Below, in pieces: positions 48,563-53,630 of a stretch of 64,000 nucleotides of DNA (the stretch's first letter is position 1; every line of letters begins with the position of its first letter). The translations under genes and the position numbers were made by a program. The notes beneath the pieces are model-generated. The model was given only the letters and a program-made list of their open reading frames with translations. It was not told the origin of the DNA and searched no databases. The DNA comes from Bdellovibrio sp. (GTDB lineage Bacteria > Bdellovibrionota > Bdellovibrionia > Bdellovibrionales > Bdellovibrionaceae). Location of the stretch: positions 1-64,000 of the forward strand of contig JANYDD010000089.1 of the NCBI GenBank assembly GCA_025359945.1. The letters run 5' to 3'.

Positions 48563-49000
48563 ATGTCCCAACAAGATATTTTGAAAAGGAAAGGTGCCCT
48601 TGAAAAAAAAATCAAATCCCCAGCTTCGACATCACCAGCCAGCGACGCCCTTAAAAACTTAAAGGATGCCCTAGACTTGAAAAAGGCATCGGCCCTAGAA
48701 AAAGACGGTACCGTTCAAAGATTTGAATACTCATATGAAATGATATGGAAACTGGGCCAACGCGTTCTTAAAGACAACGAAGTTTTTGCAGAATCCCCTA
48801 AGACCGTCTTTAAAGAACTCGGCCGTTTAGGGTGGATTGAAAATGTAGAAGACTGGATCGAGTTCCAAAGATCACGCAATGAAACTAATCATGAATATGG
48901 TGCCGCTTTGGCTAAGAAATCACTCAAACTAGCTCGAAGATTTTACCCATTGGCGAAGCAACTACTAAAAATACTTCTAGAGAAATCCGTCCGTGAATAA
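48563..49000 (+). CDS. HEPN-domain nucleotidyltransferase partner (HI0074 family)
   Basis: 145 aa. It belongs to the substrate-binding partner family of MNT nucleotidyltransferases and has the HEPN RxxxxH motif in FQRSRNETNHEYG (R-NETN-H), the RNase-type active site. RFEYSYEMIWKLGQRVLKD is also a family block. In HEPN/MNT modules this protein is usually the toxin and MNT the antitoxin. It overlaps the MNT gene by 8 bp. No Shine-Dalgarno sequence is evident. Confidence 0.85.
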   Translation: MSQQDILKRKGALEKKIKSPASTSPASDALKNLKDALDLKKASALEKDGTVQRFEYSYEMIWKLGQRVLKDNEVFAESPKTVFKELGRLGWIENVEDWIEFQRSRNETNHEYGAALAKKSLKLARRFYPLAKQLLKILLEKSVRE

Positions 49001-49313
49001 GTTTGGCCTGCAATCAAAGGCCGTTTCCCTAATTCAAGAAATCATAAATAATGCCCTTGCCAAAAAGTTAAAATTTTCAGTTTTTGTATTTGGCTCCAGA
49101 GCCTTGGGCCGCCAACGAAAGTATTCAGATCTTGATTTAATGATCCAGGCCGATCCTGAACTTTCGGAAACTGAGCTTGCTGAACTCATCGAAAGGTTTT
49201 CTGAAAGCGATCTGGCCATCCAGATTGAGATCCTGACAGAGCGGACGGCACTAAAGGATTTCATCCAGCGAATTGAATCCGAAAAGGTTTTTTGGTTCTC
49301 GGGGCCTAAATGA
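48993..49313 (+). CDS. MNT-type minimal nucleotidyltransferase (HI0073 family)
   Basis: 106 aa. The nucleotidyltransferase motif is intact: VFGSRALGRQRKYSDLDLMIQ, with GS and the D-x-D pair in SDLDL, plus a third acidic residue in IQIEILTE. These proteins add AMP to the HEPN partner or neutralise it. It overlaps the HEPN gene upstream by 8 bp, giving a complete two-gene toxin-antitoxin module. Confidence 0.88.
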   Translation: MNKFGLQSKAVSLIQEIINNALAKKLKFSVFVFGSRALGRQRKYSDLDLMIQADPELSETELAELIERFSESDLAIQIEILTERTALKDFIQRIESEKVFWFSGPK

Positions 49314-49365: not shown

Positions 49366-50400
49366 TTAGGGGACCGGTTGAGATTCCGGTGGCTGCGGCG
49401 GGTTCTTAGAAGCGTGTTCGCCAATTGCTTTCCCCATGCCTTCGGCAAATCGCCTTCCGAAATTTTCAACAAAATCCTTGATAGCGGCTCGTAATCTATT
49501 TAAGGCTGGAATGATCACGACTTCGCCTTCAATCGCTGGAGCAATCACCCGACTGATAAACTCTTTTGTTTTCGCGTCGACATCTTCGGATGCGTTGGCG
49601 GTGCTATAGATCTTTTGAATTTGTAGAGTACGTACTGTAGTTTCTAGGAAACGCAGGTCCTCGCTCTTTGCTTGGGTTGAGCTGTCGGAAAAATTATTTG
49701 TGGTGAAAAATGAGGTCAGATTTCTCCTACCTATGCACATGACGCCAGCAAATTCGCCTTGTCGAATATTGTCGACTTGAATGCGCTCCAGTCGAACACG
49801 ACAGGTAGGTGGCGTCATGTGCATACGTAAGAGATTTCTTGCCAAGTTTGCAAATATTTCTGCTGGTGTTTGGATTTCGGAATCCATTTTAAAAACACTT
49901 TGTGAAGGTTTGAAAACCCCTTCAAAATGAATGCTTCCGTTAAGCAATGGATAGAACCCGACCCATCGGATAGTTCCTACTACAGGAATTTCCGGACCAA
50001 CTAGATCGTTTCCCGTCACCATCGACCCAATAGCCAAATTTCTTACTTCCAGTACTTTAAAGTTTTTAAAAATAATTTCTTGAGCTGCGGGGGTCAGAAA
50101 AAGAGCTCCACCCGAAGTCACCAGTAAATCATAGACTGCATCTTGTGGGACCGAATTTACTATTGGCTGAATGGTTTGGAAGACTTGAACTCTTTTGACC
50201 AAGTCAATATTGCTAGGAGCGATAAAACCTAAGGCGTTAGCTGATTCAAGGCTCTGATAACAAGTTTTCACTTTGATTTGCGCGCCCACTTTGCAAACTT
50301 GATCACCACTTTTTTCAAGGTCATACGCCTCCTGGGCGCAAACATAAAAAGCAAATAAGGCGAACGAAGCTTGGCTTAAAATAAAACGGCGAATGAACAT
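49366..50400 (-). CDS. Secreted hypothetical protein containing an in-frame inserted element
   Basis: 344 aa; no family recognised. GAGGAG precedes the ATG. The N-terminus (RFILSQASFALFAFYVCAQ) looks like a signal peptide, and two cysteines follow soon after. Residues near 190-224 are the peptide LRMHMTPPTC...MCIGR encoded by the 105-bp element at 49726-49830, flanked by R-N-L on both sides from the target-site duplication. Removal would give a 306-residue protein. The C-terminus has a charged helix and a Pro/Gln tail (PPQPPESQP). Tail-to-tail with the MNT gene. Confidence 0.8.
   Translation of the reverse strand: MFIRRFILSQASFALFAFYVCAQEAYDLEKSGDQVCKVGAQIKVKTCYQSLESANALGFIAPSNIDLVKRVQVFQTIQPIVNSVPQDAVYDLLVTSGGALFLTPAAQEIIFKNFKVLEVRNLAIGSMVTGNDLVGPEIPVVGTIRWVGFYPLLNGSIHFEGVFKPSQSVFKMDSEIQTPAEIFANLARNLLRMHMTPPTCRVRLERIQVDNIRQGEFAGVMCIGRRNLTSFFTTNNFSDSSTQAKSEDLRFLETTVRTLQIQKIYSTANASEDVDAKTKEFISRVIAPAIEGEVVIIPALNRLRAAIKDFVENFGRRFAEGMGKAIGEHASKNPPQPPESQPVP
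49726..49830 (-). mobile_element. 105-bp miniature inverted-repeat element, copy 1 (in-frame insertion)
   Basis: Terminal inverted repeats share a perfect 16-bp core TATGCACATGACGCCA (49732-49747; inverted at 49810-49825), with partly matching outer ends. Flanking 9-bp direct repeats AGAAATCTC/AGAAATCTG (49831-49839 and 49717-49725, minus strand; 8/9) look like a target-site duplication. On the minus strand it is open and reads as a 35-residue peptide within a host gene. It matches 53481-53585 at 104 of 105 bases; the single difference swaps Arg for Leu. It encodes no transposase, so would need one in trans. Confidence 0.9.
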
Positions 50401-50554
50401 GGCTTTCTCCTCTTTTTTTTAGAAAAAGTAATTCGTTAGGTGCAGAGGTTTACCAGCGAGTGGTTAAAATAGAAATCCAAATTCACTACCAGTGAAAAAG
50501 AGATAAATGTGTCATCAAGATGTGCAAATTTCTTGACGGCTTTTTAATCCACTT

Positions 50555-51253
50555 TTAATACAAGCTCGCGAAGACTTTTTGGACGTCGTCGTGGTCATCC
50601 ATTTCGGCCAAAAATTCCACCACGTCTTTTTTTTGCGCGTCGGTGATTTCGGTGGGGTTTTTAGGCATATAGCCGAGTTCTGCTTTTTGAATTTTCCAGC
50701 CTTGTTTTTGCAAATCCGTTTTCAGGGTCTCTAAATTTTCACTGGGGCCGTAAAAGACAAAGCCTTCTTCTGTCGGGTAAACTTCGTTGGCATTCGCCAT
50801 AATGGCTTCTTCTTCGGGGTCAAAAGTTCCGGATTTGGTGCCTTCGACCATCGAGACCCGTTCGAACATCCACTGAACGCTGCCGGATTCTCCCATATTG
50901 CCGTCGTGACTTTTAAACAAAAGCCGGATTTCGGGCACCGTGCGGTTGCGATTATCGGTCAGAACCTCGACTAAAACTCCGACGCCGTGGGGGCCGTAAC
51001 CCTCGAAGGTGATTTCTTCGATTTGTTGACCGTCAAGCTGGCCCGAGCCTTTTTTGATCGCGCGATCAATGGTGTCGTTGGGGCAGGATTGCTTGCGGGC
51101 GGCTTCGATGGCTAAGCGCAAGCGAGAATTCATTTGCGGATCGGGCCCACCCATTCGCGCGGCGACTTGAATTTCGCGGGCCAGCTTAGTGAATATCGCG
51201 CCTTTTTTCTGCGCGTTGGCGGTTTTAGATGTGTTGATCCAGCCTCTTCCCAT
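50555..51253 (-). CDS. yebC: YebC/PmpR-family regulator (TACO1-like)
   Basis: 232 aa, standard length. MGRGWINTSKTANAQKKGAIFTKLAREIQVAARMGG (first 36 residues, an ANKHSK-type variant), then DRAIKKGSG, EEITFEGYGPHGVGVLVEVLTDNRNRT and the acidic C-terminus form the family. Members act as DNA-binding regulators and, as shown more recently for YebC-type proteins, as factors easing ribosome stalling at polyproline. A single copy stands alone here. Confidence 0.93.
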   Translation of the reverse strand: MGRGWINTSKTANAQKKGAIFTKLAREIQVAARMGGPDPQMNSRLRLAIEAARKQSCPNDTIDRAIKKGSGQLDGQQIEEITFEGYGPHGVGVLVEVLTDNRNRTVPEIRLLFKSHDGNMGESGSVQWMFERVSMVEGTKSGTFDPEEEAIMANANEVYPTEEGFVFYGPSENLETLKTDLQKQGWKIQKAELGYMPKNPTEITDAQKKDVVEFLAEMDDHDDVQKVFASLY

Positions 51254-51397
51254 AAAATCCCCGTGTGGTGTGACGAAATAACTTTCAAAGTTTAATTAAA
51301 AAAAAATTATTTGGGTAGCCGCCTGGTGCCGCAGGAAGAGGCTTCAATTGATACAACAATCGCTTCTGATCGCAAAAGTCGGAGACAAGGTAAAAAC

Positions 51398-52171
51398 TTA
51401 AACAAAACTTTCGGATTCACCCACGATGCGCCAGTGGCCCTCGGGCAAATGTCCCAGCATGATCCGACCGACACGCACTCGTTTAAGACCGGTGACGCGT
51501 AAACCTACTTGTTCGCAGACTCGTCGAATTTGGCGCTTTTTGCCTTCGCGAAGAATCATTTTTATTGAAACAGGAGTTAGCCGCTGGATATCCATGGGCT
51601 TTAAGACTTCGCCGTCCAGTTCTCGGGTGTCGCGCAGCTGCCGAATTTGAGTTTCGGTGATTTCACGTTCTAGCCGGACCAAATATTCTTTTTCAACCTG
51701 CGATTCAGGTCCAATCAAAGTTTTTGCGACCCGACCGTCTTGGGTAAAGATTAAAAGCCCCTGAGAATCGATGTCCAACCGACCGCAAACCCGCAGATGT
51801 TCCAAGCGCAATGCATCCCATGGTGGAAGCTTTTCACCGTCAAAATTTTCTGGCTTCAGCAAGCGAATGGCTGGTTCGTAGCCATCTTCTGGCTGCGAGG
51901 ACACAAAGCCAATCGGTTTGTGCAAAAGTATCGTGACTGAATCACTTTGAATTTTACGTGCGGGCGGTGCAAGCGTGATCTTGGAGTTCGGAGAAACTCG
52001 GGCGCCCGGATGCTCGCAAACCTGGTCGTCAAAAAACACCCATCGCTTCTCGATCCAAGCTTCGGCCTCGCGGCGAGAGCATATCCCTTTTTCTGAAAGA
52101 AGCTTTGCTGGCCGAATCAGCGCATTTTGATTGTCTGGATTTTCATTTTTAATCATAATTAAAGTGTTCAT
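51398..52171 (-). CDS. rRNA pseudouridine synthase (RsuA/RluB family)
   Basis: 257 aa. An N-terminal S4 domain (RPAKLLSEKGICSRREAEAWIEKRWVFFDDQ) precedes the catalytic domain with GRLDIDSQGLLIFTQDG, whose aspartate attacks the uridine, and the C-terminal REGKKRQIRRVCEQVGLRVTGLKRVRVG. It modifies 16S or 23S rRNA; RluB, RluF and RsuA are not separable here with confidence. Start is ATG 52171 or 52156. Confidence 0.9.
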   Translation of the reverse strand: MNTLIMIKNENPDNQNALIRPAKLLSEKGICSRREAEAWIEKRWVFFDDQVCEHPGARVSPNSKITLAPPARKIQSDSVTILLHKPIGFVSSQPEDGYEPAIRLLKPENFDGEKLPPWDALRLEHLRVCGRLDIDSQGLLIFTQDGRVAKTLIGPESQVEKEYLVRLEREITETQIRQLRDTRELDGEVLKPMDIQRLTPVSIKMILREGKKRQIRRVCEQVGLRVTGLKRVRVGRIMLGHLPEGHWRIVGESESFV

Positions 52172-52196
52172 TAGTTCATGCTTTCAGGAGTTCCAA

Positions 52197-52931
52197 ATGA
52201 AATATTTTTTGGTTTTAGGTTTTGTGTTTTTTTCGAACCTTGTCCAAGCTCAGTACACCGCCAAAATTCTAGATCCAAAAACAAAAGCAGTTTTGTTTAC
52301 GATGGAACATAGCCTAAAGCCGAATTTGCCGGCAGATACCGGTGGTGAAATCGTATCTCATCTGGAGATTAAAGACCCCGAGGGCCAACTTGTTTTCACT
52401 GATCAGACCGTTCTGCAGGGGCTTGAACTTTTAAAATCTGAAATTCAATCTCAACAATTAGGGGTTAAAGCCCGTGTTGAGGTTAAGAAAACATCAACAC
52501 CCCAGGTGCGCGAAATCAGCTTTTGGAAAAAAGATTTGGTTTCTGGGAAAGAAGAAATCGCTTCCGAGAAAACCAAAGAAGACATTGTCATCCAATCCAA
52601 TTTTGTAAAATATGTCGGTGCCCATTGGCCGCAAATTCAAAATGGGAAGGAAATCTCGTTTAGGTTTGTTTCTTGGGAGAGAATGGAGTCCATCGGATTT
52701 AAAGTTAAGCTGGATAAAAAAGTCGATGAAAAGGGCTTAAAAACAGTCGTCTTGCTAATGAAACCCACTTACGCCGTCATCCGGATGCTAGTCGATCCGT
52801 TGAAGTTAACTTTTTCTGAAGACGGACGAAAGCTTTTGCAAAGTTTGGGAAGGGTGACCCCAAAAATCAAATCCGGAAGCCGATGGAAAGACTTAGATGC
52901 CCTGGCCGTGTACTCCGATCGCGCTCCATAA
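52197..52931 (+). CDS. Secreted hypothetical protein
   Basis: 244 aa from ATG 52197 with CAGGAG about 6 bp upstream; the open frame extends to 52131 without a better site. The signal peptide YFLVLGFVFFSNLVQAQ (cleavage near 17-19) leads a periplasmic protein without cysteines in the mature part and with an alternating beta pattern. No family recognised. Confidence 0.78.
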   Translation: MKYFLVLGFVFFSNLVQAQYTAKILDPKTKAVLFTMEHSLKPNLPADTGGEIVSHLEIKDPEGQLVFTDQTVLQGLELLKSEIQSQQLGVKARVEVKKTSTPQVREISFWKKDLVSGKEEIASEKTKEDIVIQSNFVKYVGAHWPQIQNGKEISFRFVSWERMESIGFKVKLDKKVDEKGLKTVVLLMKPTYAVIRMLVDPLKLTFSEDGRKLLQSLGRVTPKIKSGSRWKDLDALAVYSDRAP

Positions 52932-53054
52932 AAAGTCAGCATCCAAAATTCCGACAGTTCCAAGTAATTTTTTTTAAGCTCGCAGTTTTGTTTTTAATCT
53001 GCTTGACGTTTTTGGCAGATCAAAATTCAACCGTGCAAACTTTGGAGGTTATAG

Positions 53055-53630
53055 ATGCTAAAATCATTAATGTTCGTATTGTTGATCGCAGCAACGCTTG
53101 GATCAAAACCCGTTCAAAATTCACCCCGAGAAGGCGGCACCTATTTAGGAGACTCAAATAAACAGGGGGGAGATTTGGCCAGTTTGGTTGCGGATTCCGG
53201 CCGACGTGGCGAAGGCGGCGACTATGTGAGCTTGGTAGTTGCGGACCCTGGTCGCCAGGGCGGAAGTTATGCTTCGTTGACTCTGGCTGGTGCGCCTGGT
53301 GTTTTCAAAGGCGAAAACTTGGGTCCTGAAGATATGGATGCTTGCGAAGGCCCCCAGTCTGAAGTGGCCTCTTTGTATGCTGTTGAAGACGGCCGTGCAC
53401 TTTATAATACAGATCCTTCCAGTGGCCCCCAGTCTTGTGAAGTGATGTCTTTGTACGCTGACGAGGGGACTAAACTTTACTTACGTATGCACATGACGCC
53501 ACCTACCTGTCTTGTTCGACTGGAGCGCATTCAAGTCGACAATATTCGACAAGGCGAATTTGCTGGCGTCATGTGCATAGGTAGGAAACTTTACAATACT
53601 GATCCGTCGAATGCTGAGTTGGTTGTATAG
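53055..53630 (+). CDS. Secreted repeat protein containing an in-frame inserted element
   Basis: 191 aa; TGGAGG precedes the ATG. A signal-like N-terminus (MLKSLMFVLLIAATLGS) is followed by glycine-rich repeats (GGDLASLVADSGR, GGDYVSLVVADPGR, GGSYASLTLAG) and then two copies of a 30-residue unit, GPQS...SLYA...LYNTDPS. The second unit is split after TKLY by the 35-residue peptide from the 105-bp element and resumes RKLYNTDPS, so removal of the element plus one 9-bp duplication restores the repeat exactly. Function unknown. The repeats suggest a surface or matrix protein. Confidence 0.8.
   Translation: MLKSLMFVLLIAATLGSKPVQNSPREGGTYLGDSNKQGGDLASLVADSGRRGEGGDYVSLVVADPGRQGGSYASLTLAGAPGVFKGENLGPEDMDACEGPQSEVASLYAVEDGRALYNTDPSSGPQSCEVMSLYADEGTKLYLRMHMTPPTCLVRLERIQVDNIRQGEFAGVMCIGRKLYNTDPSNAELVV
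53481..53585 (+). mobile_element. 105-bp miniature inverted-repeat element, copy 2 (in-frame insertion)
   Basis: Terminal inverted repeats (53481-53501 and 53564-53585) share the perfect core TATGCACATGACGCCA. A perfect 9-bp direct repeat AAACTTTAC flanks it (53472-53480 and 53586-53594), the expected product of transposition. Length 105 plus 9 is 114 bp or 38 codons, so the host reading frame is kept, and the element is read in the same frame as copy 1 (LRMHMTPPTCLVRLERIQVD...). One base differs from copy 1. No transposase in the window. Confidence 0.93.

Follow-up and report, generated by a model that had tools for sequence, protein, structure and literature searches.

A 106-bp element inserted in frame in two genes of a Bdellovibrio relative is probably an IS1595-type MITE

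The stretch of 64,000 nucleotides analysed here (the window) carries two near-identical copies of a 106-bp inverted-repeat element, each in frame within a gene, and in all likelihood this element is an IS1595-type MITE that is moved in trans by an IS1595-family transposase. It constitutes a new sequence family, in a Bdellovibrio relative, of this known kind of MITE. The in-frame landing of both window copies is mostly luck, because most insertions into other genes cut these genes short.

The first copy is located on the minus strand at positions 49726–49831, inside host gene 1 (49366–50400, minus strand; 344 aa, or 306 aa without the element), and is bordered by an 8-bp target duplication (AGAAATCT on the minus strand) at 49718–49725 and 49832–49839. 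The second copy is located on the plus strand at 53480–53585, inside host gene 2 (53055–53630, plus strand; 191 aa, or 153 aa without the element), and its 8-bp duplication (AAACTTTA) occupies positions 53472–53479 and 53586–53593. The copies differ at a single base, and, as a first-pass annotation of this DNA had observed, both host open reading frames remain open across the element and translate it, in the same codon register, into the same peptide. Signal-peptide-like starts were recognised by eye in both hosts, and no Pfam match was obtained for either. Homologues of host 1 in one genome of the family (G042) align across the insertion site without the 38 residues. A search of the family's 65 other genomes yielded no homologue of host 2; the insert in this gene interrupts the second copy of a LYNTDPS repeat, and removal of the element restores a LYNTDPS that matches the unit located earlier in the same protein. 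The homologues devoid of the segment (host 1) and the restored repeat (host 2) thus indicate insertion into existing genes, and both window copies are genuine in-frame insertions. Host 2 is a small protein with internal repeats (SLYA..LYNTDPS). Elsewhere in the window (48563–49313), two short overlapping genes were noted by eye that resemble a nucleotidyltransferase (MNT) and a HEPN-type partner.

The borders of the element were defined by aligning 41 copies, which placed its length at 106 bp and that of the target duplication at 8 bp. The two near-identical inverted-repeat copies and the presence of a duplication had been correctly identified in the first-pass annotation, with lengths of 105 bp and 9 bp, respectively, that require adjustment. 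A cytosine precedes the 105-bp repeat in 40 of the 41 copies while the flanks differ among copies, and this base is therefore part of the element. The duplication is perfect over 8 bp in 35 of the 41 copies, and the ninth base agrees in 12 of these 35; the 9/9 and 8/9 direct repeats originally described reflect a chance ninth base. The sum is unaffected by the corrected borders, and each insertion still adds 114 bp (106 + 8), equivalent to 38 whole codons. Target sites lean towards A in their first half and towards T in their second half. The perfect 16-bp core reported earlier (TATGCACATGACGCCA) is indeed present at both ends of the element, which terminates in CTTACGTATGCACATGACGCCA and CCTACCTATGCACATGACGCCA and whose imperfect terminal inverted repeat matches at 20 of 22 bp; the core was found four times in the window against 0.25 expected from shuffled windows, far beyond chance. 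The element lacks a transposase gene, and only one of the six frames crosses its 106 bp without a stop; this sole open frame consists of 35 codons, and the resulting 35-residue peptide includes the segments IQVDNIR and QGEFAGVMCIGR. The RNA fold of the element is strong (z −7), but an RNA function was set aside since terminal inverted repeats yield such folding; an Rfam search of the region returned no match, and no promoter or terminator pattern was found in the plus copy.

The genome from which the window derives (G000) is a draft of 2.74 Mb in 106 contigs, assigned to the order of Bdellovibrio. A search of this genome with the repeat sequence returned 40 full matches, and 41 distinct full-length copies were aligned once flanks were included. 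These copies differ on average at 2.05 of 106 bases in pairwise comparison and 14 of them are identical to the consensus, and their spread is therefore recent; this bears out the proposal of a non-autonomous, recently mobile inverted-repeat element, for which near identity of the two window copies had been the original argument. A few copies are older (78% at C29 and 94% at C13). Two copies lacking a duplication have their flank partners on other contigs (L017 with L061, and L039 with L060); left and right duplications of single insertions were found split between C26:15307 and C57:7947 and between C26:213 and C63:73801. Such split flanks are explained by assembly chimeras or recombination between MITE copies, the L017/L061 and L039/L060 pairs being located near contig ends. 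IS630-type elements (assigned by eye from N-terminal sequence and TA flanks) have inserted at TA dinucleotides within MITE copies or at their margins at C57:7944, C20:42397, C41:2862 and C96:67, and the composite ends at these sites were rejected as a parent insertion sequence, being IS630-type insertions into the MITE. An IS1595 fragment at C40:810–923 was likewise rejected as the parent, as it is a decayed piece adjoining a MITE.

Beyond this genome, the element was absent from the other genomes of the family (66 genomes scanned), and when 141 genomes of the order were searched for MITE-like paired ends, these were seen only in the window's genome and in G118 (Pseudobdellovibrionaceae MAG 336R_concoct_85_sub), a member of a different family. 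G118 harbours two copies (C7:1965–2070 and C237:9246–9351), one matching the consensus at 106/106 bases and one at 99%, and both are flanked by a perfect 8-bp duplication. The presence of the MITE in two families of the order suggests recent transfer, unless the G118 contigs are misbinned. No MITE copy was found in plasmid and phage collections; viral contigs that carry the 15-base end motif were taken as chance matches, having neither a second end nor a related transposase.

Three features point to the IS1595 family, namely the ends of the MITE, its 8-bp target duplication and the elements with which it co-occurs; the MITE had at first been considered unlike any family that could be named. 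IS1595 insertion sequences are characterised by 8-bp duplications (usually), a Zn finger and a DDE domain (PMC8101967), and 8-bp AT-rich duplications have been shown for a composite transposon of an IS1595-family insertion sequence (PMC7835479). A complete 952-bp insertion sequence with one 291-aa protein was identified in G060 (Bdellovibrionaceae UBA2316); the protein matches NF033547 transpos_IS1595 (3e-34), PF12762 (3e-19) and the Zn-ribbon PF12760. The ends of this element (CCTACCTATGCAC[T/C]TGACGCCGG) resemble those of the MITE, and no matching flanks were found around it. A broken relative, whose protein is 92% identical, is present in G031. Across the IS1595-type elements the end pattern is CCTACCTATGCAC[A/C/T]TGACGCC[A/G]G, which is similar, not identical, to the MITE ends. 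The window's genome itself contains a related element of the IS1595 type, whose ends read CCAACCTATGCACTTGACGCAAGT and which is truncated at the ends of contigs C20, C47, C69 and C34: at three of these contig ends, CCAACCTATGCACTTGACGCAAGT is followed by the final 36 codons of a transposase (94% identical), and at the fourth by the opening 30 codons of a related frame. Such contig breaks in a transposase are the usual sign of a repeated insertion sequence that the assembler did not cross, and the related ends (approximately 20/23) were seen in this genome at contig breaks only, the IS1595 element being incomplete in the assembly. Additionally, a contig break in G118 carries an IS1595 end that agrees at 140 of 141 bases with that in the window's genome. 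The joint occurrence of the MITE and the IS1595 end in the only two genomes found to bear the MITE supports this insertion sequence as the transposase source, with misbinning of G118 possible.

The prediction that the transposase is encoded elsewhere is supported. Between the MITE and IS1595-type elements, approximately 20–21 of 23 terminal bases agree, the nearest elements differing at 2–3 of 23; among the genomes examined, no insertion sequence with exactly the ends of the MITE was found. In the proposed mechanism, for which we infer both trans-mobilisation and the transposition chemistry, the 22-bp ends of the MITE, itself devoid of a gene, would be recognised by an IS1595-family transposase supplied in trans, and the MITE would move into weakly AT-rich 8-bp targets that become duplicated. 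Since 114 is divisible by three and a single frame is free of stops, one in six genic insertions would be expected to add 38 residues in frame, and both window insertions are of this sort.

To assess reading phase, the uninterrupted target was reconstructed for each insertion, and the frames running across the junction were scored with a codon-usage model trained on the window. This placed 18 sites within a convincing gene, 17 of them on codon usage and one, a marginal case, with an HNH domain. Six of these 18 genes keep their frame through the inserted copy and gain 38 residues (both window genes, C58, C88:24227, C85 and C18:21550), and 12 stop early, the latter including an NDH-2 type dehydrogenase, an AAA/DUF4143 protein and an IS3-type transposase. 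One of the 12 closed cases is ambiguous, as it affects codon 2 of a sigma-54 regulator whose real start may be downstream; the same doubt about the start site applies to every copy, open or closed, located within codons 1–40, and omitting these leaves 4 of 13 open (P = 0.16). Judged by eye, the two G118 copies differ in phase: one keeps open the gene of a protein that has a signal-peptide-like start, and the other closes a transposase-like frame. Compared with the expected 1/6, the open phase accounts for 6/18 (P = 0.065) or 5/17 (P = 0.14) in this genome and for 7/20 (P = 0.037) when G118 is included. The excess is at most mild, as loss of harmful insertions would produce. Furthermore, genes contain approximately half of the placeable copies, against approximately 85% expected from the coding density of the window (P ~1e-6). 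This difference, which would shrink if the scoring overlooked short genes, points to selection against genic copies. Changes among copies in the peptide frame comprise 4 silent and 19 replacement substitutions, where 23% silent would be expected without selection, and there is no sign of purifying selection on the peptide among the copies.

These data bear on the earlier suggestion of an element selected or designed to be tolerated in proteins, that is, selected for its open frame and for in-phase genic sites in the strict manner of Rickettsia palindromic elements (RPE). While both window copies and the 6/18 genic copies (7/20 with G118) in the open phase exceed one in six, the 12 copies in closed phases, the half of placeable copies outside any convincing gene and the ratio of 4 silent to 19 replacement changes argue against such adaptation; a mild excess would result from loss of harmful insertions alone, and one open frame in six across 35 codons is what chance predicts. 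We consider this reading very unlikely: the phase-keeping on which it depends was not borne out by the count, with many intergenic copies, and it fails the refuting condition that the first-pass annotation had itself set, that of phases at random or copies between genes. It is similarly improbable that another 8-bp-duplicating family moves the MITE and that its IS1595-like ends arose by chance or recombination: ISL3, IS66 and IS6 types also make 8-bp duplications and an insertion sequence with exactly identical ends was not seen, but the agreement at approximately 20–21 of 23 terminal bases and the presence of the same insertion sequence in both MITE-bearing genomes favour an IS1595-family source. 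If the repeat were no mobile element but an ancestral domain common to both proteins, or a gene segment that had been duplicated, the same peptide in two proteins would be accounted for; this is refuted by the intergenic and closed-phase copies with target duplications, the 8-bp duplications at 35 sites and the host 1 homologues without the segment, and retains hardly any probability.

Most of the in-frame pattern of this IS1595-type MITE is explained by arithmetic plus survivorship. There is a slim chance that phase-compatible insertions are truly enriched and that some of the 38-residue fusions, several of which affect predicted secreted proteins, yield functional translation products; the MITE would then supply Bdellovibrio relatives with new protein segments. 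The burst is clean and recent: 35 target duplications are intact, a parent family is likely, and both open and closed phases occur among the sites. It can thus serve as a control where MITE or RPE peptides are claimed to be under selection for protein tolerance.

The literature searched contained no previous report of a Bdellovibrio MITE; in-frame fusions of MITEs and RPEs have been published (PMC10969869). The RPE parallel drawn in the first-pass annotation applies to the outcome, a peptide inserted in frame in unrelated proteins, and not to the keeping of phase: RPEs are approximately 150 bp and are reported frequently in frame inside genes, whereas most genic copies here close the frame (6 open, 12 closed). 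Unlike RPEs, the present copies are near-identical and have visible target duplications and a likely transposase family. The element has the properties of a MITE, being short and without a transposase, with terminal inverted repeats, a target duplication and multiple dispersed copies. Similarly, the bacterial elements QMITE1, MITEb/MITEe of Anabaena and ERIC with ORFs are short, have inverted-repeat ends and many near-identical copies, and possess an ORF able to fuse in frame with host genes (PMC10969869), although the 106-bp element is a separate sequence family. With IS1595 insertion sequences (Zn-ribbon N-terminus, DDE_Tnp_IS1595) it shares closely similar terminal repeats, the 8-bp duplication and host genomes, while differing in that it lacks a transposase and in that its interior (approximately 60 bp) is absent from, and unrelated to, every insertion sequence seen here.
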